The translations under genes were made by a program, and so were the position numbers. A DNA stretch of 64,000 nucleotides from Streptomyces solincola (GTDB taxonomy: Bacteria > Actinomycetota > Actinomycetes > Streptomycetales > Streptomycetaceae): positions 1 to 64,000 of the forward strand of contig NZ_PVLV01000121.1 of NCBI RefSeq assembly GCF_002982015.1, read 5' to 3'. This document shows, in pieces, positions 1-48,410 of this stretch (within the stretch, counting starts at the first letter, position 1; the number at the start of each line of letters is the position of its first letter). The notes beneath the pieces were generated by a model that saw nothing but the letters and a program-made list of their open reading frames with translations, was not told the origin of the DNA and made no database searches.

Positions 1-1
1 G

Positions 2-1821: not shown

Positions 1822-1825
1822 CCGG

Positions 1826-3429: not shown

Positions 3430-3456
3430 CGCCCGGCAGACCCGCGCCGCCCGGCG

Positions 3457-5808: not shown

Positions 5809-5873
5809 GCTGGCTCATGGTACGTAAGAATCTTTAGCTGTACTGTCGGTCGCTCGCTTCCTACCGTCGTCCC
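5809..5873. promoter_or_regulatory. Divergent promoter region between argP-like and lysE-like genes
   Basis: The 65-base gap is AT-richer than its surroundings and contains the divergent promoters by position. ArgP-type regulators bind such gaps next to their exporter gene. No exact operator is claimed. Confidence 0.5.
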
Positions 5874-6497: not shown

Positions 6498-6525
6498 CCG
6501 GCGGCGAGCCCGCCCCGGGCCGGGG

Positions 6526-7245: not shown

Positions 7246-7465
7246 GCCGGTGACAGCCCGGCGGCCCCGCACGGTATTCCCCCCCCGCCGGCGGGGGGCG
7301 ACGCATCGGGGCCGGGGCGCTCGGCGGCGCCGGCGACCACGAGGGCGCCCGCCCCGGATGAGTGCGCGTACTCATGCCGCGCGCTCCGGCGGGCCGCACG
7401 ATATGGCCCTGATCCCGGCCGCGTCCGGCCCCGATCGCCGTCCCCTGACCGACGAGGAGCCCGCC

Positions 7466-8119
7466 ATGCCCACCGCCCTCCCCGGCACCGCCCCGCTCGC
7501 CGCACGCCGGCGCAGGCTGCCCGCCGCCCTGGTGGTGCTGGTGCTCGCCGCCGTCGCCGTCTCGGCGTGGCGCCCCGAGGACCCGGTCACCTGGCTGCTG
7601 GAGACGGTGTGGGTGCTGGTCGGGCTGCCTCTGGCGGTGCTGGCGCGCCGCCGCTTCCCGCTCAGCGACCTGCTGTGCTGCCTGCTGGCCGCGCACGCGG
7701 TGGTGCTCCTGGTGGGCGGCCACTACACCTACGCGGAGGTGCCGGCCGGCGACTGGGTGCGCGACCTGCTGGGCCTGGAGCGCAACCCCTACGACCGGTT
7801 CGGCCATCTGATGCAGGGCTTCGTGCCCGCCCTCCTGGTGCGCGAACTGCTGGTGCGCACCTCGCCGTTGCGCGGCAGCCGCTGGCTGGCGCCGCTGGTG
7901 GTCTGCGCCTGTCTGGCGTTCAGCGCGGTGTTCGAGATGCTGGAGTGGGCGGCGGCGGTGACCGGCGGGCACGCCGCCGACGCGTTCCTGGCCACGCAGG
8001 GGGACGAGTGGGACACCCAGTGGGACATGTTCTGCGCGCTGATCGGCGCGAGCCTGTCGCTGCTGCTGCTCGGCAGGCTGCACGACCGCCGTCTGGCCGA
8101 GCTGACGCACCGCCCCTGA
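7466..8119 (+). CDS. DUF2238 family integral membrane protein
   Basis: 217-residue multi-pass membrane protein. The motifs GGHYTYAEVPAG, NPYDRFGHLMQGFVPAL and DEWDTQWDMFCALIGA match the DUF2238 (YjdF) family, whose function is unknown. ATG at 7466 is preceded by GACGAGGAG; an upstream in-frame ATG at 7403 would add 21 residues and cannot be excluded. It is convergent with the FAD-linked oxidase gene, 18 bases away. Confidence 0.85.
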   Translation: MPTALPGTAPLAARRRRLPAALVVLVLAAVAVSAWRPEDPVTWLLETVWVLVGLPLAVLARRRFPLSDLLCCLLAAHAVVLLVGGHYTYAEVPAGDWVRDLLGLERNPYDRFGHLMQGFVPALLVRELLVRTSPLRGSRWLAPLVVCACLAFSAVFEMLEWAAAVTGGHAADAFLATQGDEWDTQWDMFCALIGASLSLLLLGRLHDRRLAELTHRP

Positions 8120-8137
8120 GCGGCGCGGCCGGGCGGC

Positions 8138-9745: not shown

Positions 9746-9835
9746 GGTGCGGCTGCTCCAGCGGCTCGGTGACCGTGCCAACGCGTGCTCTGCCTGCGGT
9801 GAGTCGTCGGCGCGGACATCGCCCCCGCCGTCATA

Positions 9836-9864
9836 TTACCGAAGCGTAAATTACCGTATGGTAA
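9836..9864. promoter_or_regulatory. Two palindromic operators between the oxidase and tetR
   Basis: Two 14-base sites lie side by side: 9836-9849 TTACCGAAGCGTAA (imperfect) and 9851-9864 TTACCGTATGGTAA (perfect inverted repeat of TTACC). They sit ten bases before the tetR start and within the divergent promoter region, so autorepression and repression of the oxidase by the TetR protein is the natural inference. Confidence 0.7.
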
Positions 9865-9874
9865 ATTCGCGGAT

Positions 9875-10540
9875 ATGGCCAGCCCCTCGTCCCGAACCGG
9901 TACCAAGGGCGTCCCGCGGGCCGTGCGGGAGCGGCAGATCCTGGACGCCGCCACCGAGGAGTTCGGCCGCCGCGGGTACGCCGCCGCCTCGCTGGCCGCG
10001 GTGGCCGGCCGGGTCGGCGTCACCAAGACGCTGCTGCACCAGTACTTCGGCGCGAAGCAGGACCTCTGCCTGGCCTGCCTGGTCCCGGTCGGCGACCGGG
10101 TGCTGGAGGCCGTGCGCACCGCGACGGCCGACCACGGGGACGGTGCGCCGCCCGACCCGGTGCGGGTGCTGCACGGCCTGTTCACCGCCCTGGAGGGCTG
10201 CCGAGAGGGCTGGTTCGTGCTCTACGACCCCGCACTGCCCGCCGACGGGGAGGCGGCCCGCCGGGCCCGGCGCTACCGGGCGGAGATCGACCGGCTCGCC
10301 GCCGCCGGCGCCGCGCGGCTGGTCGGCGCGAGCGCCGCCCCGCAGGCCGAGGCGGCGCTGGACGCCGACGCGCTGACGTATGCCTGGCGGGGAGTCGTCA
10401 CCGCGCTGGTGCGCTGGTGGATCAAGCACCCCGGCCAGTCGCCGGAGCAGATGGCCCGGCGCTGCGCCCGCCTGTTCGCCGCCGCGGGCGCGGTCTTCGC
10501 GCCGGGGGTGGATCAGGAGGGCAGCGCGACGCCCCGGTAG
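9875..10540 (+). CDS. TetR/AcrR family transcriptional regulator
   Basis: 221-residue regulator. The N-terminal HTH is clear: RQILDAATEEFGRRGYAAASLAAVAGRVGVTKTLLHQYFGAKQ (read as overlapping short motifs RQILDAATEEFG, VGVTKTLLHQYF). The C-terminal ligand domain is generic. Two TTACC palindromes lie directly upstream. It most likely controls itself and the divergent FAD oxidase; the inducer is unknown. Confidence 0.92.
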   Translation: MASPSSRTGTKGVPRAVRERQILDAATEEFGRRGYAAASLAAVAGRVGVTKTLLHQYFGAKQDLCLACLVPVGDRVLEAVRTATADHGDGAPPDPVRVLHGLFTALEGCREGWFVLYDPALPADGEAARRARRYRAEIDRLAAAGAARLVGASAAPQAEAALDADALTYAWRGVVTALVRWWIKHPGQSPEQMARRCARLFAAAGAVFAPGVDQEGSATPR

Positions 10541-10785
10541 ACGCGGTCGAGCAGCCGGAACAGCGGCGCGTCGGCCAGGGGCGGGGCGGTCCTGGAGCCA
10601 GTGGTGACGGTGTGCGCGGCGAAACCAACACCCTCGCTGGACTGCGGCGTCACGCGGTCGTCCGGGGAGATCCCGAGGACGGCCCGCACTTCGGGGACGC
10701 ACTCAGCCGGCGCCGCACGCGCCGGCCCCCGTCGCGGAGCGCCGCGGCACGCCGTACCGCGGCTCTCGGCGGCCGCCCTGCGCAC
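10513..10785 (-). pseudogene. Possible remnant of an unknown gene (C-terminal fragment)
   Basis: A leftward reading of up to 90 residues ends at 10513 and overlaps the tetR 3' end convergently. Its last 60 residues (from VRAVLGISPDDRV to RLLDRVYRGVALPS) have protein-like composition, while the N-terminal third is Arg/Ala-rich and looks like non-coding GC-rich DNA. I do not recognise the family. A decayed C-terminal fragment at the chromosome side of the prophage boundary is the best description. Confidence 0.35.
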
Positions 10786-10898
10786 CGTCCGCCTTCCGGC
10801 GGCCGGGGACGATCCGCACGGGGCGCCGGCCCGGGACCGGGCCGGCGGGCGAGCGCCCGGGGTCCCACCGGCGGCGGGGCCCCGGGCGCCCGGCGGGC
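10786..10898. other. Intergenic GC-rich stretch
   Basis: Between the unknown fragment and the truncated host gene nothing convincing is seen. The DNA is extremely GC-rich (repeated GCGCCGG/CCGGGC motifs around 10821-10885), which could form a transcription-terminating hairpin for the two genes that end on either side. Confidence 0.4.
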
Positions 10899-11085
10899 TC
10901 AGACGTTCGGGACGGTGTCCTCGAAGGACGTGCCGGCGCCGCGGTAGGCGGCGACCTTCGCCTGGACCTGGGCCGGGATGAGCCCCTGGCCTTGACGTGC
11001 AGGACGTAGTCGACCTGCTGGTCGTAGGCGCGCGGAGTGGTGCTGGTCTGGCCCTGGAGGTCGATCAGCCACTGGTTGAAGTTGT
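10899..11085 (-). pseudogene. 3' end of a host gene cut by the prophage, with one frameshift
   Basis: Leftward reading gives HNFNQWLIDLQGQTSTT and continues to VDYVLHVKARG in one frame, then, after about base 10990, continues in a second frame as LIPAQVQAKVAAYRG and ends SFEDTVPNV at 10899. Both parts look like one protein C-terminus of about 60 residues joined by a one-base deletion (GGGGCTC where GGGGCCTC would restore the frame). Upstream of 11085 the similarity to coding DNA stops where phage sequence begins. I infer that the prophage integrated within this gene; its 5' part should lie at the far prophage end. The family is not recognised. Confidence 0.6.
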
Positions 11086-11115
11086 GCCTTATGGCACCTG
11101 ACCTGCACTGATGCC
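11075..11115. other. Candidate attL (left prophage boundary)
   Basis: The host reading frame ends and phage-like sequence starts here. The junction contains a perfect inverted repeat GTGCC-TTAT-GGCAC at 11084-11097, followed by CTGACCTGCACT. Imperfect dyads of this kind are usual in attachment sites of large serine integrases. The core cannot be fixed without attR or attB. Confidence 0.45.
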
Positions 11116-11134
11116 AGCGTAGCAGCACTCATCG

Positions 11135-11159
11135 AAAGCCTCCTTCGGGGGGCTTTTTG
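11135..11159 (+). terminator. Intrinsic terminator at the left end of the prophage
   Basis: AAAGCCTCC, a TTCG tetraloop, then GGGGGGCTTTTT: a stable stem-loop followed by a T-run. It would end transcription entering from attP/host DNA before the first early gene, leaving the next gene to its own promoter. Confidence 0.7.
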
Positions 11160-11205
11160 CATGCTCTCATCCCGTTTCATCCCATCCCCAACCAAGGAGC
11201 GCACC

Positions 11206-12225
11206 ATGTCGCGCGAAACTCTCGACTGGCTGTCCAGCAACACCCTCATCGGCTTCACCGAGAAGAGGGGCCCCGCCTGGCACCACCGGGCCGGCGACGA
11301 CAATCACTACCCCGGCCCCATCCCGGTCGAGCTGGTGGAGCGCCGCCTCTTCGACTGGGAGGCCGAGGAGCGGGAGCTGTTCACCGCCACCCACAACCCC
11401 GGCTCCGGTGAGTCAGCATTCCGTGCAGTCCTCGGCTCGAAGGCCATCGTCCGCAGCGACACCGGATCGGTGCTCGGGATCTTCAAGGACGGCTATCAGC
11501 CGCACCAGTACCGCGAGTGGCTGCTGAGCAACGTCGCCACCATCCTGGACGACGATCTCCAGATCGGCTCGGCCGGACTGCTCCGCGGTGGTGCCATCGC
11601 CTGGGTGTCCGTGGAGGTGGCCGAGAACCGCAGCATGGCCGGCGGCATCGTCTTCCGGCCGTTCCTGATGGCCACGACCAGCTTCGACGGATCACTGGCC
11701 ACCACGTACAAGCGGGGTGTCACCAACGTCGTCTGCGACAACACCATGAACGCCTTCCTGCGGGAGGCCGGCGAAACCTTCCGCGTCCGGCACTCCGCGA
11801 AGTCGCTGACCAAGCTGGCGCGGGCCCGCGACGCCCTGGGCATCGTCTTCGACACCGGCGACGCTTTCGAGCGGGAGGTCGAGCACCTGCTGTCCGTGAA
11901 GGTGGACGACGCCACCTGGGGCCGCATCGTGGACGAGCTGATGCCCATGCCGGACAACCTCACGACGCGGGCCGGCAAGGTCGCCGCAGCCCACGCCACG
12001 AAGAAGCGGGACGCCGTCCAGCAGCTCTACCACCACGACCTGCGGGTTGCCCCCTGGGCGGGCACCGGCTGGGGCGCGTGGCAGGCGTTCAACACCTGGG
12101 GCCAGCACGAGAAGCAGGTGCGCGGCGCCACCCGCCAGGAGCGGAACATGCTCCGCACCGCGACCGGCGACATCGAGAAGGAGGACGTCGCCACGGTTGA
12201 GCGCATCCTGTCGCTCGCCGCATGA
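11206..12225 (+). CDS. DUF932 domain phage/plasmid-like protein
   Basis: 339-residue DUF932 protein, a family common in phages and plasmids and of unknown molecular role. Features include a start region MSRETLDWLSSNTL, GSKAIVRSDTGSVLGIFKDGYQPHQYREWL, VCDNTMNAFLREAG and WQAFNTWGQHEKQVRGATR near the C-terminus. ATG at 11206 is eight bases after AAGGAG. It is the first gene inside the prophage, between two terminators, so it is probably a monocistronic, separately controlled unit. Confidence 0.88.
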   Translation: MSRETLDWLSSNTLIGFTEKRGPAWHHRAGDDNHYPGPIPVELVERRLFDWEAEERELFTATHNPGSGESAFRAVLGSKAIVRSDTGSVLGIFKDGYQPHQYREWLLSNVATILDDDLQIGSAGLLRGGAIAWVSVEVAENRSMAGGIVFRPFLMATTSFDGSLATTYKRGVTNVVCDNTMNAFLREAGETFRVRHSAKSLTKLARARDALGIVFDTGDAFEREVEHLLSVKVDDATWGRIVDELMPMPDNLTTRAGKVAAAHATKKRDAVQQLYHHDLRVAPWAGTGWGAWQAFNTWGQHEKQVRGATRQERNMLRTATGDIEKEDVATVERILSLAA

Positions 12226-12267
12226 GGCCCCGCTCCGCACCCGTTCCTCGGGCTGCCGAGCGGATGA

Positions 12268-12297
12268 GGGCCCGACCTGAGCGCTCAGGTCGGGCCC
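12268..12297 (+). terminator. 30-base perfect palindrome terminator after the DUF932 gene
   Basis: GGGCCCGACCTGAGC is followed at once by its exact reverse complement, giving a perfect 15-base-pair palindrome, then CGCCCCTTTCC. It lies 43 bases after the DUF932 stop and 34 before the next start. Confidence 0.75.
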
Positions 12298-12330
12298 GCC
12301 CCTTTCCATCACCTACCGAAGGACCCGCGC

Positions 12331-12513
12331 ATGCCCGCATACAACGGAACCCGCCACCACAACGCCAAGCTCGACAACCGCAAGGTCCGCCAGGCCCGCA
12401 AGAGCTTCGACACCGGCAAGTGGACGGTGACCGCCCTCGCCACGAAGTACGGCGTCTCCTGGGGCACCATGTACGCCCTGCTGAAGCGGCAGACGTGGAA
12501 GCACGTCGCCTGA
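12331..12513 (+). CDS. Small phage helix-turn-helix protein
   Basis: 60-residue DNA-binding protein. HNAKLDNRKVRQARK is the start of a phage HTH family often seen next to HNH endonucleases, and ALATKYGVSWGTMYALLKRQTWKHV is a complete HTH. Such small proteins may target homing nucleases or repress local promoters. It stands alone between two hairpins, suggesting its own transcript. Confidence 0.8.
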   Translation: MPAYNGTRHHNAKLDNRKVRQARKSFDTGKWTVTALATKYGVSWGTMYALLKRQTWKHVA

Positions 12514-12658
12514 CTCAGACACCCTCACAGCACATGGGGAGCTGGACACTCCACCCATCCCTGTGAGGGCCTAAGCCCCTTTCTCCGCAGCTCCGTTGCT
12601 ACCCGGTGCCGCGTCGAGAAAGGGCAGCCGCTCCCCATTGGCGTGGGTTGCAGCGGCG

Positions 12659-12698
12659 GCCCCCGGCATCGCTTTAGGGATGGGGCGATGCCGGGGGC
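12659..12698 (+). terminator. Strong hairpin (terminator-like)
   Basis: GCCCCCGGCATCGC at 12659-12672 and its exact reverse complement at 12685-12698 form a 14-base-pair stem with a 12-base loop. There is no T-run after it, so it may be a terminator of the GC-rich type or an RNA-processing/stability element. The rest of the gap 12514-12740 shows no gene. Confidence 0.6.
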
Positions 12699-12740
12699 TC
12701 CTGATTCCCATCCCCTACGTCCGGAAACGGGGCGGCAGTC

Positions 12741-12932
12741 ATGAACGAGAACATCCGCCCCGGCGACGGGGTCTACTACCACGGCTCCCTCACCGAATGC
12801 CACGGGCTCTACACCGTGACCTACGTGAATGAGGCGCGGCGTCTGCACCTGGCCTCCGATGAGGAGCAACTGCAAGGCGTCTGGCCGGACTCCGTCGAAC
12901 TTCTGATCCGAGGCAGCAATGAATTCACGTGA
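12741..12932 (+). CDS. Hypothetical small phage protein
   Basis: 63 residues, MNENIRPGDGVYYHGSLTEC at the start and VWPDSVELLIRGSNEF at the end. The pattern IRPGDGVYYHGS resembles a small SH3-like beta-barrel but this is only a guess. It begins a long run of coupled genes: the next start lies 14 bases before this stop. Confidence 0.65.
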   Translation: MNENIRPGDGVYYHGSLTECHGLYTVTYVNEARRLHLASDEEQLQGVWPDSVELLIRGSNEFT

Positions 12933-13242
12933 ATGGTCCCCGTCCAACCCTGACGGCGACCTGGCCCCTCTCCTCCAGCGCTCCATCGACGCCGCGAAGC
13001 GACGCCACCCCTCCGGAAAGGCTGAGCCCATGGCCGGAACACTGACCGCCGCTGACCGCTGCGACCGATGCCCGGCCGCCGCCGCGTACCGCGTCCAGAA
13101 GGACGATGCGCCTCTGGCGCTCGACTTCTGCGGCCACCACTTCCGCAGCAACGCCGCTGACCTCTACGCGGAGGGCTGGACCGTCACCCTCGGCAATCCG
13201 GACGTCGTGGGCCTGCCCGACCTGGAAGGGACACCGTCATGA
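12919..13242 (+). CDS. DUF7455-like zinc-binding protein
   Basis: 107 residues. The C-terminal half LTAADRCDRCPAAAAYRV then FCGHHFRSNAADLYAEG matches a small family (DUF7455, from memory) with a CxxC and a CxHH pair that should bind zinc; it is common in actinobacteria and their phages. The N-terminal 37 residues are extra; an alternative start at 13030 would give just the domain. Overlaps both neighbours. Confidence 0.72.
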   Translation: MNSREWSPSNPDGDLAPLLQRSIDAAKRRHPSGKAEPMAGTLTAADRCDRCPAAAAYRVQKDDAPLALDFCGHHFRSNAADLYAEGWTVTLGNPDVVGLPDLEGTPS

Positions 13243-13415
13243 AGCAGCAGATCATGAAGCGGAAGCCCGTGCGCAGTCGCCGGGGCGAGTGGGAGACCGC
13301 TGCCGACGCGGAGCGCCACGACCGTGCCGTACGAGCCCGCCGGCGTGCCGCGCGGGAGTCGAAGCGGGCGGAGAGGATGCTCCGGTACCTGGCCGAGTGT
13401 GAGGCTTCACCGTGA
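13239..13415 (+). CDS. Hypothetical small basic protein
   Basis: 58 residues, MKQQIMKRKPVRSRRGEW then a long Arg/Ala/Glu helix ending LRYLAECEASP. Start ATG overlaps the preceding stop (ATGA), end overlaps the next GTG. No family recognised; a basic amphipathic helix suggests nucleic-acid or protein binding. Confidence 0.6.
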   Translation: MKQQIMKRKPVRSRRGEWETAADAERHDRAVRARRRAARESKRAERMLRYLAECEASP

Positions 13416-13516
13416 GCGTCGAGCGCCGGCGGTCTATGAGCGACCGCCGGTTCTACGCCCTCCTCGTCTGGTCGCTGATTGTCCTCCTGCTCATCATCGG
13501 AGCTCTGTCCGGATGA
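13412..13516 (+). CDS. 34-residue single-pass membrane peptide
   Basis: GTG-started reading VSVERRRSMSDRRF followed by the transmembrane segment YALLVWSLIVLLLIIGALSG. It overlaps its neighbours by four bases on each side (GTGA and ATGA), which argues that it is translated. Arginine-rich N-terminus predicts an inside-in orientation. Confidence 0.55.
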   Translation: MSVERRRSMSDRRFYALLVWSLIVLLLIIGALSG

Positions 13517-13746
13517 GTCAGCGCTACGTGCCGCCGGCGCTTCTGTCGGCGGCCTGGGCGGCGGCCGTGGCCGGAACCGCGCCGCCACCGCCGCCGCTTC
13601 CAAGCAGCAAACTGAAGCACGACTCCCACTTCCATGTCTTCGGAACCTTGTACGGCTGCGACGCATGTGAAGAGCTCTGCTTCTGCGTCCAGACCAAGGC
13701 CGCTTATGGCAAAGACATCGTGTGCGTCTTCTGTGAGGCGCAATAA
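13513..13746 (+). CDS. Small protein with cysteine pairs
   Basis: 77 residues. An Ala/Pro-rich N-terminus is followed by LYGCDACEELCFCVQTK and DIVCVFCEAQ, giving CxxC and CxxC pairs that probably bind zinc. ATG at 13513 overlaps the previous stop. Function unknown. Confidence 0.6.
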   Translation: MSQRYVPPALLSAAWAAAVAGTAPPPPPLPSSKLKHDSHFHVFGTLYGCDACEELCFCVQTKAAYGKDIVCVFCEAQ

Positions 13747-13834
13747 GGGACATCTCTGGTACCGAGACACTTTCGTGTACCCCCCGACCAATATCAAAAC
13801 CAACTGGTGCGTTAGTTGTGGGGTGAGTATCACC

Positions 13835-14110
13835 ATGCCTGAAATCAGCGGGTGGACCATCAGATGGCACGCCTTGCAGCGCGCGCTGGACATGGCCGTT
13901 GAAGGCGAAGAGATCCGACTCTGCCTGACGGAACCGAAGCTCATTTCAGATTCGCCGGAGCGCTACCCGAAAGAATGCAAGATTTACGAGCGCGGGCGCA
14001 TAGCTATCGCCGTGAACGAGGAAACCCGTGAAGCGATAACCGTCCTGTGGAACACCGGCGGTTACTGGCGTTTCGACCGAGACGACGATGAACTGTGGTG
14101 GCGCGATTGA
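13835..14110 (+). CDS. DUF4258-like small protein
   Basis: 91 residues: IRWHALQRALDMAVEGEEI, a central KIYERGRIAIAVNEETREAITVLW and an acidic end. The layout helix, then Y-x-x-G-R-x-x-(V/I), then strand with ITVLW recalls DUF4258 proteins, small RNase-fold-like domains; this is a weak resemblance. ATG at 13835 has GGGGTGAG upstream; the frame stays open further upstream, so a GTG at about 13733 is an alternative. Confidence 0.6.
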   Translation: MPEISGWTIRWHALQRALDMAVEGEEIRLCLTEPKLISDSPERYPKECKIYERGRIAIAVNEETREAITVLWNTGGYWRFDRDDDELWWRD

Positions 14111-14532
14111 AGGAACGCATCTGTAAGGACTGCCTGACGGAGTGGGGCGGGTTTCTCCCACCTGCTCGGCAAAGGCGGCCGGCTCCCTACGACGGACCCC
14201 GCTGTCACACCCACCACCGAGCGGTCATGAAGGCCCGGAGGGTCGCGGCGCATGAGAAGCGCGTCCAGCGAACCTACGGCCTCGACCCCGGAGAGTACGA
14301 CCGGCTCCACGCCTTCCAGGGCGGCCTGTGTGCCCTCTGCCGGCGGGCGACCGGGGCCACCCGCAAGTTGTCCGTCGACCACGACCACGCCACCGGTGAG
14401 GTGCGCGGCCTGCTGTGCCGGCCGTGCAACAACACCCTCGGCCACGCTCGGGACGCGGTGGCCTTCTTCGCACGCGGCATCGACTACCTGAACGACCCGC
14501 CGGCCCGGCAGATGCGGAGGCAGGCACCGTGA
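14095..14532 (+). CDS. Recombination endonuclease VII family nuclease
   Basis: 145-residue HNH-type nuclease of the T4 endonuclease VII group, which cleaves Holliday junctions and branched DNA before packaging. Seen are YGLDPGEYDRLHAFQGG, zinc-binding LCALCRRATG, the catalytic LSVDHDHATGEVRG and LLCRPCNNTLGHARD. An extra N-terminal CKDCLTEW pair is also common in phage members. GTG at 14095 overlaps the upstream gene; GTG at 14098 is equally possible. Confidence 0.9.
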   Translation: MVARLKERICKDCLTEWGGFLPPARQRRPAPYDGPRCHTHHRAVMKARRVAAHEKRVQRTYGLDPGEYDRLHAFQGGLCALCRRATGATRKLSVDHDHATGEVRGLLCRPCNNTLGHARDAVAFFARGIDYLNDPPARQMRRQAP

Positions 14533-15686
14533 CCCAGATCGAGTGCCACGTCTGCGGGAAGCGCCTCGTCCCCACGGTCACCGGCAAGTACCGCAAGCAC
14601 AACCAGAAGGGGCAGACGGAACCATGCCCGACGTCAGGGACGGTAGTCCCGGAAGAACAGGATGCCGACTCTGCGACCTCTTCGACGCCCTCTATCCCGA
14701 GTACGCCGGCGACTGGTGCGACTGCTCTGCCGGGAGCGAGCGAGTACGCGGAGAACCTGAACCGGATTGCGAGTAACCAGGCCGAGGAGTTCAGGGCGGA
14801 AGTCGGTGCGCGGCTGAGCCAGTTCAGCCAACCGGCCCGCGATCCGGACGCCGGGGAGCAGATCCGGCTTTTTAGCCAGCCCGCAGCCTTCAAAGCGCCG
14901 AAGGTGGACGTCAGGCCGATGACGGATCTCGGGCTTGAGATTACGGCGCGGCTGAAGGAGATGTTCCATGGCTACTCGAATCGGCAGGAACGCAGCCAGC
15001 AGAAAGCGCTGGGACCCTCCGAGATCGGGTCACCTTGTGACCGTCGACTGGCAATGTCCCTCATGCGGTTGCCGAGGGTCAATCCAGGTGGTGACGGTTG
15101 GGCCTCGTTTGTCGGGACATGCGTCCATGTTGGCCTCGCTGAGATGTTCACATGGGCAGACGCCGGATCTGGTCGCTATGCGGTCGAAGTCCCCCTGACC
15201 TTCTACTCGCCTTTCGTCCCGCGTGGCACTGCGGACCTTTTGGACCGCGTCCTGTTCATGATCGACGACCACAAGCTGATGGGCAAGTGGTCGCGGAACA
15301 AGCTCAAGTCGTCAGGCCCTTCCCCGACTTACCGCGTCCAGGCGCACACGTACGCCTACGGCGCACGGAAGCGGGGCGAGCGCATCGAACACGTCGCCAT
15401 CATCGGCTGGCCCCGCGACGAGTCGTCTCTCGAAGACCTCTACGTCTGGACGGAGCCGTACAACCCGAAGGTCGCGCTGGATGCCCTGGCGCGGGTTGAC
15501 GCCCTGGCCGAACGGCTCAAGGGCTGCACCGAAACCCTCGGGCTGCACAACGATGGATGCTCCTGCCCGTCGGACGCAGAGAAGGCGATGGCCCTCCCTT
15601 TCAACAACAGCGATTGCCGGTACTGCCCGTTCTACATGCCGGGAGCGCAGGCGTCGGGGAACGGCATGTGCAACGGAAAGAGCTGA
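14529..15686 (+). CDS. PD-(D/E)XK nuclease, RecB/Cas4-like exonuclease
   Basis: 385 residues. An N-terminal zinc-finger-like region (CHVCGKRL) and a low-complexity linker lead to a RecB-like nuclease: GTCVHVGLAE (His200, Glu205), GTADLLDRV with Asp236, and IDDHK with Asp247 and Lys249. Cys170 in IGSPCDRR plus CRYCPFY and a final Cys near the C-terminus form the four-cysteine pattern of Fe-S cluster nucleases (Cas4/AddB type). GTG at 14529 overlaps the previous stop. It most likely works with the neighbouring protein at 15842 in phage recombination. Confidence 0.85.
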   Translation: MTQIECHVCGKRLVPTVTGKYRKHNQKGQTEPCPTSGTVVPEEQDADSATSSTPSIPSTPATGATALPGASEYAENLNRIASNQAEEFRAEVGARLSQFSQPARDPDAGEQIRLFSQPAAFKAPKVDVRPMTDLGLEITARLKEMFHGYSNRQERSQQKALGPSEIGSPCDRRLAMSLMRLPRVNPGGDGWASFVGTCVHVGLAEMFTWADAGSGRYAVEVPLTFYSPFVPRGTADLLDRVLFMIDDHKLMGKWSRNKLKSSGPSPTYRVQAHTYAYGARKRGERIEHVAIIGWPRDESSLEDLYVWTEPYNPKVALDALARVDALAERLKGCTETLGLHNDGCSCPSDAEKAMALPFNNSDCRYCPFYMPGAQASGNGMCNGKS

Positions 15687-21588: not shown

Positions 21589-21939
21589 ATGGAAGACATG
21601 GGCGACGAGCTGGCCGCCGGCAACACCCTGGTCGTGGCCGAGCGCTCCGGCATCATCCGGGCCGTGTACGGCGACGCGAAGCGCGTCCTCGGCTGGACGG
21701 CCGAGGCCCTGGTCGGAAAGCCGCTGGTGACGCTGATCCCCGAGGACATGCGGGCCGCTCACCTGAACGGCCTGGCGCAGTTCAACGCGACCGGGGAAGG
21801 CCCGATCCTCAACCGGACTGTCGAAGTTCAGTGCGTGGGGCGGGACGGCATGGCGCGGGACATCGCGCTCACCGTCTACGACGGCGACGTGGACCCGGTC
21901 ATCTACGGCTGGATCGAATCGCGTGCCGGCGGGGCGTGA
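21589..21939 (+). CDS. Stand-alone PAS domain protein
   Basis: 116 residues forming essentially one PAS domain: RSGIIRAVYGDAKRVLGWTA, EALVGKPLVTLIPEDMR, HLNGLAQFNATGEG and VGRDGMARDIALTVYD are the textbook PAS pattern. No kinase, HTH or other output domain is fused. PAS domains bind small ligands or mediate dimerisation; here it could modulate a host two-component or sigma-regulatory PAS protein by hetero-oligomerisation (inference). It overlaps the following HNH gene by 17 bases. Confidence 0.85.
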   Translation: MEDMGDELAAGNTLVVAERSGIIRAVYGDAKRVLGWTAEALVGKPLVTLIPEDMRAAHLNGLAQFNATGEGPILNRTVEVQCVGRDGMARDIALTVYDGDVDPVIYGWIESRAGGA

Positions 21940-22201
21940 CGGGAGGCGATGGCGGCAGACGGTTGCCATCGCCCGCCGTGAATTCCCACCGGTCTGCTGG
22001 CTCTGCGGCCTCCCCATCGACATGTCGCTGCACCACAACGACCCGATGTCCTGGACGGTCGAGCACAAGCTGTCGCTTGCCGAGGGCGGCGACCCGTACG
22101 ACCTGAACAACCTGGCCCCCGCACACCGCCGTTGCAATTCCAAAAAGGGTGCCAACAACCGGCCGGTCGAGCGGCCGAAGACTTCCCGGAGGTGGAAGTG
22201 A
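21923..22201 (+). CDS. HNH endonuclease
   Basis: 92-residue free-standing HNH nuclease: VCWLCGLPIDMSLHHNDPMS, then WTVEHKLSLAEGGDPYDLNN and LAPAHRRCNSKKG. The two CxxC-type half sites bind the structural zinc and the EH/H/N residues form the active site. Being small and without DNA-binding extension, it could be a homing enzyme or part of packaging, as seen in many phages. GTG start within the PAS gene. Confidence 0.9.
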   Translation: MPAGRDGRRWRQTVAIARREFPPVCWLCGLPIDMSLHHNDPMSWTVEHKLSLAEGGDPYDLNNLAPAHRRCNSKKGANNRPVERPKTSRRWK

Positions 22202-29396: not shown

Positions 29397-30617
29397 GTGC
29401 AGTTCAGCCAGCCCGGGTGGACCGCCGAAAGTGGGCTGCCGTACCCCGGGGCCGAAACCGCGGCCGAGGCCATCGAACGAGACGCCGAGCAGCAGCAGCT
29501 CGCCGCGCAAGCGAAGGTCGAGAAGGCCAAACACCTCGCTCGAGAGAAAGGGCGGCAGGAAGCCGAGAAGGAAGCCGAAGCTCTCCGGCAGGTGCGCTCG
29601 GTGCGGGCCAGCCAGGTCACCATCCAGCGCACCCGCTGGCTCTGGCGCGACCGCATCGCCCTCGGCGGACTCGCGCTCATCGCAGGCAAGGGCGACGTCT
29701 CCAAGTCGACCCTCCTCGCCCAGATGGTCGCGTGGATCACGACCGGGGACATGCGCGGCGAGTTCGATGGCGTGCCGCGCGCCGTCGGCTACGTCGTCAA
29801 CGAGGACTCCCTGTCGCAGACCGTCGTCCCCCGCATGGTGGCCGCCGGCGCCAACCTGGACCTCGTGCACTTCCTCAGCGTCGCCTCCCCACTGGGCACC
29901 GACGCCCTGAAGTTCCCCCGGGACATCGACCTGCTGAAGGACTTCATCTACCAGCAAGGACTGGTGGCGATCTTCATCGACCCGCTGTCGGCCAACGTCA
30001 CCGGCCGGAAAAACGACCAGGGGGACATGCGGGACACCTACCAGACGGTGAACAACCTGGCCGAGGAGACGTGCTGCGCCATCATCGGCCTCGCCCACAC
30101 CCGCAAGGCCGGGGCCTCCGACGTCATGGAAGCGATCATGGGCAGCTCGGAGCAGGGCAACGTCGCCCGCTCCGTCCACGGCCTCGTCATGGACCCCGAA
30201 GAAGACAACGCCCGCATCCTGTCCTGCGAGAAGCTGAACGTCGGACAGAAGAACCTGCTGCCGTCGCTCCGCTTCACGCTGGACACCGTCATGGTGCGCT
30301 GCACCGACGGCACCAACGACCACACCCCCATGCCGAAGATCCGCTGGCTTGACGAGATCAGCGAGTCCGCCTCGGACATCCTGGCCGACCAGGTCGCCGG
30401 CAACCACGGCGTGGACGAGTGCGTGGAGTGGCTGCGGAAGTTCATGCGGGACAGCGGCGGCGAGGCGTACTCGCACGACGTGAAAGATGCCGCCGGCCGC
30501 AAGTTCTCACCCTCCATGATCGCTCGGGCGAGGAAGAAGCTCGGGGTGGTGGCCACCCGGACCAACGAGACGCCGTCCAGGACAGTCTGGCGAAGCGCAG
30601 AAAATTCGGTCACTTAG
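29397..30617 (+). CDS. RepA/RegA-like AAA ATPase, replicative helicase
   Basis: 406 residues. A charged N-terminal coiled coil (to about residue 65) leads to a RecA-fold ATPase of the RepA/AAA_25 group: LALIAGKGDVSKST at 93-105 (Walker A with Ser102 in place of the usual Gly), VGYVVNEDSLSQTVVPRM, Walker B VAIFIDPLSAN at about 193, and a C-terminal winged-helix-like region. Together with the prim-pol it should form the phage replisome. GTG start. Last gene before the AT-rich gap. Confidence 0.82.
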   Translation: MQFSQPGWTAESGLPYPGAETAAEAIERDAEQQQLAAQAKVEKAKHLAREKGRQEAEKEAEALRQVRSVRASQVTIQRTRWLWRDRIALGGLALIAGKGDVSKSTLLAQMVAWITTGDMRGEFDGVPRAVGYVVNEDSLSQTVVPRMVAAGANLDLVHFLSVASPLGTDALKFPRDIDLLKDFIYQQGLVAIFIDPLSANVTGRKNDQGDMRDTYQTVNNLAEETCCAIIGLAHTRKAGASDVMEAIMGSSEQGNVARSVHGLVMDPEEDNARILSCEKLNVGQKNLLPSLRFTLDTVMVRCTDGTNDHTPMPKIRWLDEISESASDILADQVAGNHGVDECVEWLRKFMRDSGGEAYSHDVKDAAGRKFSPSMIARARKKLGVVATRTNETPSRTVWRSAENSVT

Positions 30618-36817: not shown

Positions 36818-37426
36818 TCACCTGTTCTTGGGTCGGGTGGCGGTTCCGGCGATACCTTCGGTGCGGACTACCCACGTAACGGCCTGGACCGTGGACGGGA
36901 GTTCGCCCAGCCGCATAGCGGCCTCACGGTAGGCGTGCGCCACGACCGCATAGCGGGTCTTGGCCGACAGTCCACGGTCACGGCTGCCGTACGTCTCGCC
37001 TACGGCGATATCGTGCGCGTGCCGGTCGATGCAGACCGCTTCGGCGTCTTCCGGGTCGAGAATGCACCGGTAGAAGTTGCCGGTCTTGGCAGTCATCGGC
37101 AGCACTACCGCCGGGTCGGCACCGGCCATGATCTTCGCGGCCTTCGCCAGCGTCTCACCCGTGTGCCCGCTGGGCGCGCCGCTCTCGAAAGCTCGGGACG
37201 CCAGTCGGGAGTTCTCAGCCCATGATTTCTGGGCGGACAGTGCGGCGATCACGCCAGCACCGGCCATGACGTTGCCCTCGCTGATCATGTCTGCGAGTTG
37301 GTGAGCGGTGAGGTACCACGCGCGGCCCCGGGCGAGTTGATCCGGGGAGGCTTTCGCATACTCGTCCATGATGTTGATCACGAACTGTTCCCGCTCTTCG
37401 GGCGTGAGAGTCTTCATGTTGATCAT
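36818..37426 (-). CDS. DUF7178-like phage protein
   Basis: 202 residues: FVINIMDEYAKASPDQLARG, AWYLTAHQLADMISEGNVMA, GVIAALSAQKSWAENSRLAS, KTGNFYRCILDPEDAEAVCI, DRHAHDIAVGETYGSRDRGL and PSTVQAVTWVVRTEG. The helical layout with K-x-x-N-F-Y and DRHAHD recalls a HhH-GPD DNA-glycosylase-like fold; the family is, to my recollection, catalogued as DUF7178 in actinophages. ATG at 37426 follows AGGTGAG; GTG at 37435 is an alternative. Confidence 0.7.
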   Translation of the reverse strand: MINMKTLTPEEREQFVINIMDEYAKASPDQLARGRAWYLTAHQLADMISEGNVMAGAGVIAALSAQKSWAENSRLASRAFESGAPSGHTGETLAKAAKIMAGADPAVVLPMTAKTGNFYRCILDPEDAEAVCIDRHAHDIAVGETYGSRDRGLSAKTRYAVVAHAYREAAMRLGELPSTVQAVTWVVRTEGIAGTATRPKNR

Positions 37427-37474
37427 CGTACTCACCTAACGGTGATTGGGCGGGAACTTGCGAGTGCTCCGGGC

Positions 37475-38281: not shown

Positions 38282-38577
38282 GGTTCGCGCCGTTCTTTCA
38301 GTGGGATGGATTGCCAGTCATGCGAGCCGCTGATTCACCCATGACCGATCACCCGAGCTAATCGGTATGTGATCATGGGTCGCGTCGCTACCGTCATGAC
38401 TGGCAAGCGGGATGGGAAATGGCCTGTACTTCTGTGCACTAGCGAGTGGGTTCGGACTGGTTAGCCACTTTCAACTACTGGACGTCTCCTTTAGGCGTGG
38501 ACCGTTTACCGTCGGGCGTTCACATCCCGATTAGGCCGCTCGGTTTCGTTTCCGCTACAGGCCGCTTTCCCATAGTC
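38282..38577. other. Non-coding control region upstream of the leftward operon
   Basis: No convincing gene. It holds the nested inverted repeat (38311-38406), then moderately GC-rich DNA with GGACCGTTTACCG at 38499-38511, a reversed partial copy of the 31-base repeat. A leftward promoter for the operon ending at 33766 must lie here. Confidence 0.5.
38311..38406. repeat. Nested inverted repeat
   Basis: Outer arms TTGCCAGTCATG (38311-38322) and CATGACTGGCAA (38395-38406) are exact reverse complements. Inside them ACCCATGA pairs with TCATGGGT and CCGA with TCGG around 38354-38364. The element can form a long cruciform or RNA hairpin. It lies 30 bases upstream of the first leftward gene. Confidence 0.75.
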
Positions 38578-38655
38578 CCCAGTGCCCGACTCGAACGGGC
38601 CGCGTTCCTAGCAGGGTTGGCCGATTGATCAGCCAACCCCTCACTTACTGGGGGT
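38578..38655 (-). ncRNA. tRNA-like fold without normal D and anticodon arms
   Basis: Leftward, CCCCAGT and ACTGGGG form a 7-base-pair acceptor-like stem 63 bases apart. Directly before the 3' strand is a perfect T-arm, GCCCG-TTCGAGT-CGGGC. The total length is about 77. The middle does not give a 5-base-pair anticodon stem with T33; instead GGGTTGGC and GCCAACCC form a longer hairpin. So it is a tRNA-like element or decayed tRNA, not a standard tRNA. No CCA is encoded. Confidence 0.45.
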
Positions 38656-39059
38656 GTTTGGGTCTAACGGGTCTTCCGTCGCTCACCCGCGCCGTGGTCT
38701 AGCCTTTTCAGGGGCCTTAGCCGCTGCGTGTCCCACATTCTGGTATGGGTGCCTTATCTGTTGATCATCAGGAGGAGAATCCTCATCTTGTGCGGTGACG
38801 CGCCCTGTAGATTCGGGGTCCTTCCGCTTTCCTGATGTACTTCTATTGTGCGCCCACGCTACGCCAAATACAAGGGTTTTGGGAAAAAAGGTACCCCAAA
38901 TTCCCCACGACTTTGGGTTGTTGGCCCTACCTATTCTGTAACTACCCATGCCCTGTTAAATGGTGGCCTTCTGATCTTTGGCTATACGCCTCTACTTCAC
39001 ATGGTCACCCTGTTGAGATACGCCACGATCTACACCCCAACCACACCTAGATCACTGGC
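38656..39059. other. Non-coding, AT-richer stretch
   Basis: No convincing gene. Unusually AT-rich for this DNA, with runs such as GTTTTGGGAAAAAAGG and short CCCAAA/TTTGGG repeats. A leftward reading (38683-38949) exists but has poor codon use and was not accepted. Confidence 0.5.
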
Positions 39060-39770
39060 CTATTGCATGTAGATCAGTAGCAACCCACCATCACAGTGCA
39101 CCACTCGACCCACCACACATACCTAGTGCACCAACACCTAGCCACCACACCCATACCTACCTGCCACCTACCGCCACCTACACCCCATGCCCTATGCGTA
39201 CCTCGTGTGCACCATGACCCTGCATCACGTGCACACCTAAGCCATACGCACACACCCATTACAAGCACATGCACCAATGCCTATGTGCACACACCCAACA
39301 CATGGCACACGTGCCTAGTAGTACGTGCACACCCATACACCCATGTGCCACGTGCCCACGCCCTATGCCCTATCCCCTCTACCCCCTGTACCCCTATCCC
39401 CACGTGCACGTGCACCCATGCACACCACTCATGCACACACATCATGCATTGATTCATTCATTCTCAATTGATCAACTCAAACAACTTCAATTCAACTTGC
39501 TGTTGAACATTGCTTTGCTTGACAAGCTGACTGGCAAGCCACTGCATCACTGTCACGCAACACCGAGCATCACGCCCGCACCACTGACCACCTGCCGCAT
39601 CCCACACGCCTACGCACGACGGCACGCCCGTCATCGGTCCCCGCACCCCCACGCCTAGGCCACACGGCATACCACGTGCACCGATCACCCATAGGCATGG
39701 CAACTGCACATGTGCAACAGGTGATCACCCATTCAAGGTAGCAACGCATCCCAACGCGCATGCACTCACA
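39060..39770. other. A/C-rich, G-poor block with CACGTG and GTGCAC motifs
   Basis: About 700 bases whose plus strand is dominated by C and A with very few G except inside CACGTG, GTGCAC and CATGCA palindromes, for example ACCTAGCCACCACACCC and CCCACGTGCACGTGCACC. No reading frame has normal codon use. Alternating CA/TG runs (GTGCACACACCC) are frequent. An AT-rich island with direct repeats of TCATTCATTC lies at about 39445-39530. Nothing else in the window looks like this. Confidence 0.65.
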
Positions 39771-39777
39771 TTGACCT

Positions 39778-39815
39778 ATAAGGAATCCCTTAGTCGCTCG
39801 ATAAGGAATCCCTTA
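39778..39815. repeat. Tandem 15-base repeat, operator-like
   Basis: ATAAGGAATCCCTTA occurs at 39778-39792 and 39801-39815, start to start 23 bases. Each copy is almost a palindrome (AAGG and CCTT arms). TTGACC, a -35-like hexamer, begins seven bases before the first copy. A pair of repressor or activator sites next to a promoter is likely. Confidence 0.65.
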
Positions 39816-39993
39816 CCGTCAACGTTGCAAGCCAATGGCCACACCCATTGCATTCATTCGCGCGTTCGCATCGAACTGTCCCGCGCACCACATGAAACGC
39901 ATATCGGCGCTGCATGAGAATGCGCCGACACTTATAGCTTTCGATGCGTCGATGACAAACACTCAGGTGATCTAAGTGGTAGTCGACGCACAC
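39790..39993 (-). CDS. Doubtful small Cys-rich protein
   Basis: A 67-residue leftward reading: MCVDYHLDHLSVCHRRIESY, CRRILMQRRYAFHVVRG, RCERANECNGCGHWLA. Cysteine and arginine spacing looks protein-like (CxxxxxCxxC), but codon use is much less GC-rich than in the phage genes, and its end overlaps the tandem repeat. A stem TCGGCGC/GCGCCGA lies inside it. Either a small zinc protein or non-coding. Confidence 0.25.
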   Translation of the reverse strand: MCVDYHLDHLSVCHRRIESYKCRRILMQRRYAFHVVRGTVRCERANECNGCGHWLATLTVRDSLSSD

Positions 39994-40418
39994 TCAGAAG
40001 AATTCAGCTCACCATGCTTGACACATGGGTGAGGGAGGGGGGCCGGTTGCCGACGGGCCCGCGCGGCCCGGTCGACCCCGCCCCTGTCGACCGTTTCTCT
40101 CCCCGATGGAAAAATCTGCGGCGATTCGGCCCCAAGGGCTGCATTTTCGCAGGTCAGGGGCGCTTTAACCGTCGATCGGCAGGCGTTGGGAACCGCCGGC
40201 CGAAGTTCAGCGGCCTGGGTGGAGTTCCTGAGGGCCGGCCTCGCCCACCGCGGCCTGGTCGTGGGTGGCCGACGGCTTCGGTTGCCAGCCGCCGGCACCT
40301 CAATCCGCCGAAACCGGCACCCGCCAAGCGTGCATATCTATCCATTTACCTCCTGGCTGGGCTCAATTTCCAGGATGGTCTGTAATTGCTTTTTTGAACC
40401 GGATTCAGGGGTGTATTT
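39994..40418 (+). other. Leader of the late operon, possible small gene
   Basis: Region between the control block and the first structural gene. A rightward frame from ATG 40014 to 40385 (123 residues, starting MLDTWVREGGRLPTGPRGPV) has GC-rich third positions in its first half but is Pro/Arg/Gly-rich and not recognisable. It may be a gene, or the late promoter and a long untranslated leader. An imperfect inverted repeat CTCACCATG/CATGGGTGAG lies at about 40006-40034. Confidence 0.3.
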
Positions 40419-40691
40419 ATGGCGACGAACCACATTAAGGACCCGGACGCCACCCTGGACTGGATTTTCGACTGGTCGCAGTGGCTCAGTCCGCTGGAGA
40501 ACATCACCAGCTCGGTGATGACGGTTTCCCCGGGGATCACGCTTGAGTCGTCGGGTTTCTCGGCGTCGACTGCGACGGCTTGGGTGTCGGGCGGCTCGGA
40601 GGGTCGGGTCTACCAGGTGTCCAACAAGATCACAACGAACCAGGGCCGGATTGACGAGCGGTCCATCACGATCCGCGTCACGAACCGATAA
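40419..40691 (+). CDS. Small virion structural protein (beta-rich)
   Basis: 90 residues: ATNHIKDPDATLDWIFDWSQ WLSP start, then SSVMTVSPGITLE, ATAWVSGGSEGRVYQVSNKI and DERSITIRVTNR. The last part is the signature of small phage Ig-like/virion proteins (T-x-x-G-R-x-x-x-R-S-I-x-I-x-V). First gene of the late arm. Confidence 0.72.
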   Translation: MATNHIKDPDATLDWIFDWSQWLSPLENITSSVMTVSPGITLESSGFSASTATAWVSGGSEGRVYQVSNKITTNQGRIDERSITIRVTNR

Positions 40692-46642: not shown

Positions 46643-46966
46643 ATGGCCAAGAAGACCAGCCTGGAGGAAGAGATCGCCTCCGGCGATCGCAGGCGCCAAC
46701 TCACCGCCCTCCGGGACTACGTCGCGCACGAGCTCGAAGCCAACCGGTGCCGCTCCTGCCAGATGTCCCAGCTCCGCACCGGCGACACGGCCTCCCTGGT
46801 GCTCCGTCTACAGAAGATCTGCGAAGAGCTCGCAGCTCTTCCGGCTGAAGGTGGGGAGGTGAGCCGCCTTGCAGTCATACGAGGAGGCGTCACCTCTCGG
46901 ACACCAGATGCCAAGACTGCAACACCTGCCCCCTTCGGTCGGAAGTCTGGGACGCGAAGTAGCTGA
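46643..46966 (+). CDS. Probable terminase small subunit
   Basis: 107 residues: LEEEIASGDRRRQLTALRDY, ANRCRSCQMSQLRTGDTASL, VLRLQKICEELAALPAEGGE. Small helical actinophage proteins of this kind directly precede and overlap the large terminase; DNA recognition at the packaging site is inferred. It overlaps terminase by 98 bases; the last 30 residues are low-complexity and perhaps dispensable. Confidence 0.65.
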   Translation: MAKKTSLEEEIASGDRRRQLTALRDYVAHELEANRCRSCQMSQLRTGDTASLVLRLQKICEELAALPAEGGEVSRLAVIRGGVTSRTPDAKTATPAPFGRKSGTRSS

Positions 46967-48410
46967 GCTTTCGGCCCTGGCGGGCTTGAATCTCGACCCG
47001 TGGCAGGTCTGGACGATGGAGCAGGCGTGCGCCGTCAAAGAGCAGACCTTCTATAACGAATTCACTGACGAGTGGCAGCGCATGTGGGCCGCCTTCGAGG
47101 TCGGCCTAGTCGTTAGTCGGCAGAACGGAAAAGGTTCGATTCTTGAGGCCCGTGAACTGGCGGGCCTCTACCTTTTCGGTGAACGTCTCATCATCCACTC
47201 GGCCCACCAATTCGACACCTCCAAAGAGGCGTTCGCCCGCATCCTGATGCTGATCGAGCAGACGCCCGACCTGGAAGCCGAAGTGAAGCGTGTATCCCGC
47301 TCCCACGGCGAGGAAGGCATCGAGCTCAAGAGCGGCCAGCGCCTCCGCTTCCGCACCCGGACCAAGGGCGGCGGCCGTGGCTTCACCGGTGACTGCCTGA
47401 TCCTGGACGAGGCCATGTACCTGGACTCCAGCCAGGTCGGCGCCCTGATGCCGACGCTGTCCGCCAGGCCCAACCCGCAGCTCTGGTACACCGGCTCGGC
47501 CGGCGACAAGGAGTCCACCCAGCTCGGCCGCGTCCGCTCCCGCGCGCTGAAGCACAACGACCACCGCCTCTTCTACGCCGAGTGGTCCATCGACGCCTGC
47601 ACCGACTTCTGCCTGTCCACCTGCACCGACCACGACGACCCGACCGCGGTCTCCTCCTTCGCCAGGGCCAACCCCGGCCTCGGAATCCGCATCAGCGTCG
47701 AACACGTCCAGTCCGAGCAGCGCTCCATGGACCCCGACACCTTCGCCCAGGAGCGCCTAGGCGTCGGTGACTGGCCCGTGGACGGCGACCAGTGGGCCGT
47801 CATCGGTGAGGACTCTTGGAAGGCCCGCACGGACGAGGCCAGCTTCATCCTGGACGGCAAGGACGACTTGCTGCTCCTGGCCGTCGACACCAGCCCGAAC
47901 CGGGCCTTCTCCTCCATCGGGGCCTGCGGCAAGAACCCCGACGACCTCCTGCACGTCGAGATCACTGGCTACGAGCAGTACGACCACCGCCCCGGCACTC
48001 AGTGGGTCGTCCCCCGCCTGAAGGAGCTGTGGGCCTCCCTCCGGCCGGCGGCCGTCGTCATCGACAAGGTCGGCCAGGCCGGCGCCTTCATCGGGGAGCT
48101 CGAAGAAGCCGGCATCAAGGTGCTCTCTCCGACCACCTACGAGTACGCCCAGGCGTGCGGCGAGTTCTACTCCGGCATCGTCCCCCGCAAGGGCGAGACA
48201 CCGCGCATCGTCCACATCGGCCAGACGCCGCTCACCAATGCGGTAGCCGGCGCCGACAAGCGCGACCTCGCCGATAAATGGGCCTGGGACAAGAAAAACT
48301 CCTCATCAGACATATCTCCGCTCGTCAGCGTCACTCTCGCGGCGTGGGGATACCGCAAGCTGCTCCACGAGCGTCCTGCGGCAGCCGCCCCATGGGTAGT
48401 TCGGAGGTAA
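46869..48410 (+). CDS. Terminase large subunit
   Basis: 513 residues. ATPase: NLDPWQVWTMEQA, Walker A-like VVSRQNGKGS, LIIHSAHQFDTSKEAF, Walker B CLILDEAMYLD, and coupling motif WYTGSAGDKES. Nuclease: LLLLAVDTSPNRAFSS, VVIDKVGQAGAF and a C-terminal DISPLVSVTLAAWGY. It cuts concatemers and pumps DNA into proheads. TTG start, in frame with the strongest N-terminal homology. Confidence 0.93.
   Translation: MQSYEEASPLGHQMPRLQHLPPSVGSLGREVAELSALAGLNLDPWQVWTMEQACAVKEQTFYNEFTDEWQRMWAAFEVGLVVSRQNGKGSILEARELAGLYLFGERLIIHSAHQFDTSKEAFARILMLIEQTPDLEAEVKRVSRSHGEEGIELKSGQRLRFRTRTKGGGRGFTGDCLILDEAMYLDSSQVGALMPTLSARPNPQLWYTGSAGDKESTQLGRVRSRALKHNDHRLFYAEWSIDACTDFCLSTCTDHDDPTAVSSFARANPGLGIRISVEHVQSEQRSMDPDTFAQERLGVGDWPVDGDQWAVIGEDSWKARTDEASFILDGKDDLLLLAVDTSPNRAFSSIGACGKNPDDLLHVEITGYEQYDHRPGTQWVVPRLKELWASLRPAAVVIDKVGQAGAFIGELEEAGIKVLSPTTYEYAQACGEFYSGIVPRKGETPRIVHIGQTPLTNAVAGADKRDLADKWAWDKKNSSSDISPLVSVTLAAWGYRKLLHERPAAAAPWVVRR

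Follow-up and report, generated by a model that had tools for sequence, protein, structure and literature searches.

A strand-asymmetric, palindrome-rich block at the probable genome end of a Streptomyces prophage

What is a block of several hundred bases, rich in A and C on one strand and poor in G, doing in the gap between the early and late genes of a phage? We examined such a block in a 64-kb window, the whole stretch of DNA analyzed here, which is the initial part of a 79,657-base contig. Up to about 11 kb, the sequence has the look of host DNA (GC about 0.77). Beyond that point the window is prophage, with leftward genes followed by a rightward late module from 40419 that holds adaptor, head-decoration, tail-spike, terminase, portal, and head genes. 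The block occupies the divergent gap, with a candidate leftward early promoter on one side and a predicted cos on the other, within about 2 kb (38300-40400) that lacks a GC codon-phase signal. On the early side lies a gene for a DUF7178 protein (36818-37435, minus strand), our anchor for finding relatives. The first late gene (40419-40691, plus strand) matches Pfam Gp77, a fiber-tail adaptor, and the terminase small and large subunits are encoded at 46643-46966 (phrog_1459, E 3.5e-5) and 46869-48410 (phrog_9), both on the plus strand. An HNH homologue (match at 21932-22195) and a primase/helicase-type replication gene (29397-30617) lie elsewhere in the prophage. The DUF7178 gene region matched 31 phage records, all from Streptomyces phages and some of them duplicate records, with 71-73% identity among the 20 matches listed. 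Alvy and Spernnie, two of these phages, belong to the Arquatrovirinae; tblastn with the window TerL, TerS, and first two late genes found no match in Alvy 1-15000. We read the prophage as a temperate Streptomyces phage with early genes in common with the Arquatrovirinae.

The first-pass annotation had described an A/C-rich, G-poor anomaly at 39060-39770, and this description held. Using 700-base windows across the prophage (11-64 kb; mean skew −0.045, SD 0.075), the minimum skew was −0.474 at 38991, while windows starting outside 38.0-40.2 kb reached −0.194 at the most negative. The G fraction of the block, 0.144, is the prophage minimum, with 0.251 or more elsewhere. The block is thus the most skewed segment of the prophage, and the lowest-GC 700-base window (0.517, start 38821) overlaps it. 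Its extent needed slight widening, since a 200-base rule placed the entire block at 38901-39800, with the A/C strand being the plus, late-sense strand.

The reported abundance of palindromes was also borne out. Within 39040-39780, we counted GTGCAC 9 times, CACGTG 6 times, and ACGTGC 8 times, against 1.2, 0.57, and 0.81 expected from dinucleotide-preserving shuffles. Nearly all GTGCAC and CACGTG sites fall in the left half of the block, where they form a core array within CA/TG-alternating sequence (39080-39440). Across the prophage, 9 of 21 GTGCAC sites lie inside the block, and the others do not cluster. Spacing between palindromes in the block is irregular, from 6 to 266 bases. The description of G as confined to palindromes fits just part of the block: in the core, 29 of 47 G (62%) lie inside palindromes of at least 4 bp (shuffle mean 14, maximum 24), but the figure for 39060-39770 is 49 of 110 (45%; mononucleotide shuffles, mean 33, maximum 48), and the right half (39441-39770) has no excess (17 of 59; shuffle mean 17). 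Purines and pyrimidines alternate more often than in mononucleotide shuffles (0.654 versus 0.489, z 9.3), and the CA/TG alternation is consistent with proneness to Z-DNA. The motif excess agrees with the proposal of a multi-site array of short palindromes, to which proteins may bind. Two identical near-palindromes, ATAAGGAATCCCTTA, 23 bases apart (39778-39792 and 39801-39815), look operator-like; the window holds only these two copies, and the 14-base core is absent elsewhere in it.

We rejected coding DNA or a degenerate gene as an explanation, in line with the original note, because the block has no GC codon-phase signal and stops in all six frames; one reading frame across it stays open for 146 codons. 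No tRNA genes were found in the window, and no Rfam family matched either strand of 30-45 kb up to E 0.5. Folded as RNA, the plus strand of the block gave a z of −1.6, with 1 of 20 shuffles folding equally well. Tandem repeats are short, at most 2.8 copies of 6- to 13-base units and 5.5 copies of a 4-base unit. The block is single copy in the host genome, and an exact copy exists in IMG/VR; this copy probably comes from the same strain and so is not independent support for the assembly. We consider an assembly artefact unlikely.

On the early side, we noted by eye a candidate leftward promoter, TTGTAT-N17-CACAAT (38845-38873, minus strand). A consensus promoter scan reported no promoter, so the candidate is based on by-eye comparison; it is partly conserved in Streptomyces sp. 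CC53 (TTGTGA-N16-TACAAT). None of 100 shuffles folds as well as the leader that would follow (38300-38850, minus strand; z −2.9), which has no Rfam match. The leader contains a tRNA-like element (38577-38653, minus strand) with a 7-bp acceptor-type stem, a T-arm with GTTCGAGTC/GTTCGATTC, and a long hairpin in place of the other arms; no D-arm was seen. When the 5-kb region was mononucleotide-shuffled 200 times, the same search found no match. Run on 25 sources, it also found an element in CC53 (4270-4333, plus strand of locus L009), one in L010 (8306-8407, elsewhere), and tRNA-Ile genes in three; it found none in the prophage of G385 (L279). ARAGORN and Rfam called nothing at the window element, which may be processed by RNase P/Z or may mimic a tRNA. 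Separately, upstream of early genes in locus L092 (2400-2800, minus view), we noticed by eye a stretch that recurs in similar form three times, with AATTACCGNTCAA or AATACCGATCA, much like a repeated start-associated element.

The position of the block directly upstream of the candidate promoter raises the idea that it is an upstream control region, where a phage regulator would find many operators or activator sites, or a host nucleoid protein would bind and silence the prophage. The paired operator-like sites at 39778 and 39801 would suit such a role. However, about 200 bases separate the palindrome core from the candidate promoter, the block spans 700 bases, and GTGCAC is unclustered in the rest of the prophage. 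We regard this explanation as unlikely, and the relatives described below bear on it further.

The other flank was examined for a packaging site. At 40070-40092, we found GGTCGACCCCGCCCCTGTCGACC, followed by a pyrimidine run and then an A-tract at 40110-40114. The sequence is conserved in G385 as GGTCGACCCCGCCTCCCGACC and partly in CC53 as GACCCCGCCGTCGGCC. It resembles the right end of the mycobacteriophage Arib1 record, which ends in GACCCCGCCCCCCGA and starts with GTCAGGATTTTTTTTT; the first part of Arib1 TerL, the only part compared, is distantly related to window TerL (26% identity over 305 amino acids, E 7e-16). The ends of Alvy and LilSpotty do not carry the predicted cos sequence. From these comparisons, GGTCGACCCCGCCCCTGTCGACC is likely the cos region, about 290 bases to the right of the block edge at 39780; the block thus probably lies near the packaging end, as the suggestion of a joining region next to cos would have it. 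Farther right is a 9-mer, GCAGGTCAG (40149-40157, plus strand), that some other actinophages also carry near a genome end. In the Arib1 and LilSpotty records it sits roughly 60-90 bases short of the right end; in Alvy (L005/L042) and three other contigs of 49-51 kb (L052, L053, and L060), the distance to the end is roughly 190-217 bases. Counting both orientations, it occurs four times in the window (40149, 30688, 30774, and 11098) against 0.75 expected, with the copies at 30688 and 30774 forming an inverted pair. Copies are also present in G385 (L279 11270-11278, minus) and in L196 (2510-2518). The 9-mer is absent from 140 of 195 loci, and many other occurrences are away from ends.

The first-pass annotation had pointed to close relatives as a check on the block. 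Across 198 other genomes of the genus, its sequence is missing but for short matches (30, 36, and 41 bases) in three, yet A/C-rich blocks stand at the same place in two further prophages, those of CC53 (L009, identical to L089) and G385. The CC53 block has a skew of −0.60 on the corresponding strand, an alternation z of 0.0, no TGCA excess, and over-represented CATTCA and TGATCA; it has no alignable sequence in common with the window block. A lower-GC part of the window block with CATTCATTC and TTGATCAA (39441-39520) looks like the CC53 block by eye, but in that orientation the alignment score is within the shuffle range. The G385 block, immediately preceded by an HNH endonuclease gene, contains an 8-base tandem repeat of CCTATGCA, with 14 counted copies around a run of 99 N, as well as CCCCTACCCCTACCCCTACCC, and its alternation is high (z 8.9). 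The window and G385 prophages have in common their first late genes, a cos-side GGTCGACCCCGCC...GCAGGTCAG, and TGCA-rich arrays; the CC53 locus L009 lacks GCAGGTCAG. Identity of DUF7178 to the window protein is 80% in CC53 and 65% in G385. Array type therefore goes with the cos side and not with the early gene, albeit in only three prophages, which tilts the balance toward packaging over early control.

To put numbers on recurrence, we applied a fixed rule (250 bases, absolute skew of at least 0.40, GC of at most 0.60). Because many loci are short or have limited flanks and stop before the early/late gap, the counts are not absence rates; most loci examined had no block by this rule. Among DUF7178 relatives, 4 of 80 viral loci passed (80 of 93 loci kept): the window, CC53, L011, and L066, the last unread. 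One of 16 DUF7178 genome loci passed (CC53). For TerL relatives, 80 of 495 viral loci were kept, and 4 passed: CC53, the window, L272, and L276, which was also unread. A TerL match at 1e-40 is present in 25 other genomes; regions from nine of them were scored and one passed (G385), and one more of the 25 is CC53. L272 and L280 were rejected as blocks since they looked coding, and L092 and L094 were set aside for weak skew and a different appearance by eye. One of nine isolate ends has a block by the fixed rule, that of Streptomyces phage Dagobah, in both repeat copies; in Alvy, Spernnie, P1312, TP1604, Xkcd426, Hiyaa, LilSpotty, and Arib1, the ends examined have none. Searching the phage collection with 38900-40420 returned 32 records, with no credible homologue of the block among the 30 listed (E 0.1 to 6); L011 gave one match (E 7) and L165 none that was credible. 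Searches of open-licence PMC papers turned up no description of such blocks, which does not prove that none exists.

This patchy distribution, the lack of alignable sequence between the window and CC53 blocks, and the tandem (CCTATGCA)n of G385 could all reflect a selfish or neutral satellite, a functionless product of slippage and duplication in a tolerant non-coding gap. We think this improbable. The window block is not a single tandem repeat, and blocks of similar composition occupy the corresponding place in a second terminase lineage.

That second lineage comprises Dagobah (MT711977) and five metagenome contigs (L140, L173, L175, L011, and L196). L011 came from the DUF7178 search but has a different terminase: window TerL matches nothing in its record, and its terL matches other families best. 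Its block separates the early genes from terL, and relative to the genes its skew is reversed; three TerL relatives of L011 (L128-L130) had no block by the fixed rule. L173, L175, L140, L165, and L161 were found by an alternating-pattern search, so that neither their alternation nor their TGCA content counts as independent evidence, and L196, which was outside the fixed-rule census, was found by a cut-site pattern. In the relatives that were not found by the alternating pattern, alternation was high in L011 (z 7.3) and L196 (z 5.4) and slight in Dagobah (z 2.5). The fixed rule was passed by 17 of 53 pattern loci, and in 13 of these the passing stretch lay over 1 kb away from the pattern match, which means that the rule alone is not specific; the remaining four were L149 (the window itself), L165, L167 (L011 again), and L132 (unread). 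L140, L161, L173, and L175 are blocks by eye that fail the skew rule, with a skew of only −0.18 in L175. No terminase was recognised in L165 in the frames tested. Block limits in relatives were chosen by eye. Dagobah itself was found by BLAST from L173 at E 2, a match taken seriously because of its place. A tblastn search of Dagobah 1-12000 with window TerL and TerS found nothing at E 1e-3. Aligned pairwise with L011, L165, and L173, the window block scored above all 100 shuffles, and with CC53 it did so only in reverse orientation; given the low complexity, such scores are weak evidence of common descent.

Dagobah has a mapped end. According to its paper, termini were determined with PhageTerm, and repeats appeared as a two-fold step in coverage at single-base positions (PMC7650747). 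The annotated terminal repeat is 1-1187, so the end falls in the middle of an 8-mer, GACGGTCC. This 8-mer is the longest invariant run in the aligned stretches of Dagobah, L140, L173, L175, and L011, which were chosen around the GACGGTCC palindrome after it had been seen by eye; it is also present in L196. The array lies within about 60 bases of GACGGTCC throughout the lineage. In four of the six (Dagobah, L173, L175, and L196), TGCTTCTGCAAAG stands 27-28 bases before GACGGTCC, while L140 and L011 have looser GCAAA/TTTGC copies instead. The arrays are enriched in CTTTGC/GCAAAG (Dagobah, 7 versus 0.6 expected; L175, 5 versus 0.3; L173, 4 versus 0.3), and in these three GCAAAG also occurs at the cut. 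Past the cut, a small gene starts in five of the six (Dagobah, L140, L173, L175, and L196), with products homologous by eye; none was seen in L011. It precedes terL wherever terL was seen, and we read it as a putative terS, although the Dagobah record annotates it as a putative transposase. The L140 array is mostly ATGAGC (8 copies), and L140 also has a perfect palindrome, TGCTCATATGAGCA; both would suit control of an early promoter. Against such control, the best-aligning part of the Dagobah lineage is the cut, the aligned stretches being around the cut only.

The two lineages differ in polarity. In the window lineage, the A/C strand points toward the terminus; in L011 and Dagobah it points the other way, and the G/T strand is late-sense. 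This does not favor the earlier suggestion of a strand-specific transcription or replication block as a shared role, and a Rho site, R-loop, or pause common to both is unlikely; a strand-specific role within one lineage could exist.

Arrays that are spelled differently in each phage, are clustered, and lie next to the genome end most plausibly serve as multi-copy sites for the phage's own end-processing proteins. The location of the block at a probable genome end is fairly well supported. We tentatively favor, with less than even confidence, the reading that the block is a fast-evolving protein-binding array at the early, right-hand virion end, used by genome-processing proteins. The terminase small subunit or its partners would be first in line to bind many copies in the block, and the bound copies may build a nucleoprotein complex that marks or prepares the concatemer end for cutting and packaging. 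The A/C-rich, CA/TG-alternating, G-quadruplex-bearing sequence may keep the segment easily deformed. The mapped Dagobah end, in the shared GACGGTCC beside an array, speaks for packaging, and the window cos is predicted. The Dagobah end resembles the window in having a strand-asymmetric array between leftward early genes and the terminase genes; it differs in its length (about 200 bases), GCAAAG motif, opposite polarity, and direct terminal repeats in contrast to a predicted cos.

Other features argue against packaging. The predicted, unmapped cos is about 290 bases from the block, and there is no GTGCAC between 39676 and 42758, so the array motif is absent at the predicted cut. The L140 array is mostly ATGAGC even though L140 has, by eye, a recognition helix nearly identical to that of L173. 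Repeated protein-binding sites beside a packaging cut are familiar from lambda cosB/cosQ and from pac arrays, which are much shorter than the window block and lack strand asymmetry and CA/TG alternation. The HK97-type cos is similar in having non-coding DNA at the virion end, with an A-tract that the HK97 site contains and that follows the predicted cos here, and in the company of a small terminase (phrog_1459 in the window, to which HK97 TerS may belong) and an HNH homologue. According to PMC10370121, HK97 small terminase needs just 15 bp, +15 to +29 from the cut. That site is a single element downstream of the cut, and nothing described with it is like a 700-base A/C-rich array (PMC10370121), so a terminase of this kind would have no need for one. 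The A-tract at 40110-40114 would be a better match for a small site.

The block also carries a G-quadruplex motif (39355-39401, minus strand), with runs of at least 4 G at 39374-39401; this left part of the block holds the only motif in the window with four such runs. Coverage of the block was 47 nt versus 6.3 in shuffles, with a fraction of 0.013 at or above. The corresponding fractions, all uncorrected for the number of blocks tested, were 0.100 for G385, 0.043 for CC53, 0.000 for L165, and 0.020 for Dagobah; by G4Hunter score, they were 0.017 for L011, 0.000 for L161, and 0.043 for L140. L173, L175, and L196 blocks had no excess. In the window, CC53, and G385, the motif is on the same strand, in each case somewhat above shuffles.

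The presence of this motif in all three prophages of the window lineage is one reason to consider an origin of lytic replication, in which the repeats would be iterons for a phage-specific initiator in the lowest-GC segment and the G-quadruplex would aid opening or priming. The overlap with the lowest-GC window, the phage-specific repeat arrays (including the 8-base tandem of G385), and the primase/helicase-type gene all suit an origin, which explains low GC, repeats, and G-quadruplex about as well as packaging does. Iteron origins of plasmids and phages likewise have element-specific repeats (PMC7157519). However, no initiator gene is recognised next to the block, its identified neighbors being DUF7178 and a virion gene, and the irregular spacing of the repeats is unlike the regular direct repeats of the iteron type. 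Array type also follows the cos side and not the early gene in the three prophages, and strand polarity differs between the lineages. The slope of cumulative skew changes at 39-40 kb, coinciding with the change in gene direction, and is uninformative on an origin. We judge an origin possible but rather doubtful. As the user of the block in the packaging reading, a terminase is somewhat more likely than a replication initiator.

A broader proposal would place these blocks in a hitherto undescribed class of genome-end satellites in actinobacterial phages: CA/TG-alternating, strand-asymmetric, often G-quadruplex-bearing sequences that arose or were kept independently in at least two terminase lineages. 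They would act through Z-DNA and/or G-quadruplex structure, not one sequence, and would signal end handling by terminase or replication machinery. We offer this class as a long shot.

To our knowledge, little of actinophage genome-end and lytic-origin recognition has been mapped. The finding narrows the search for an end or origin signal to one place of about 0.7-1.2 kb, and comparable loci are at hand in the cultured phage Dagobah (on S. coelicolor) and a small prophage family. A region that changes most of its sequence while keeping its position and composition suggests that alignment-based annotation misses such regions. During the pattern search, we also observed a phage contig (IMGVR 3300049926_000007) with repeated GATATGTGTGGGAAATGTGTGGATATAGTGT and CACACGCGCGTACACACGCGCGTACACGCGCGCGCACG in a strongly alternating stretch. 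Its two loci, L158 and L172, have the same flanks and different repeat numbers.
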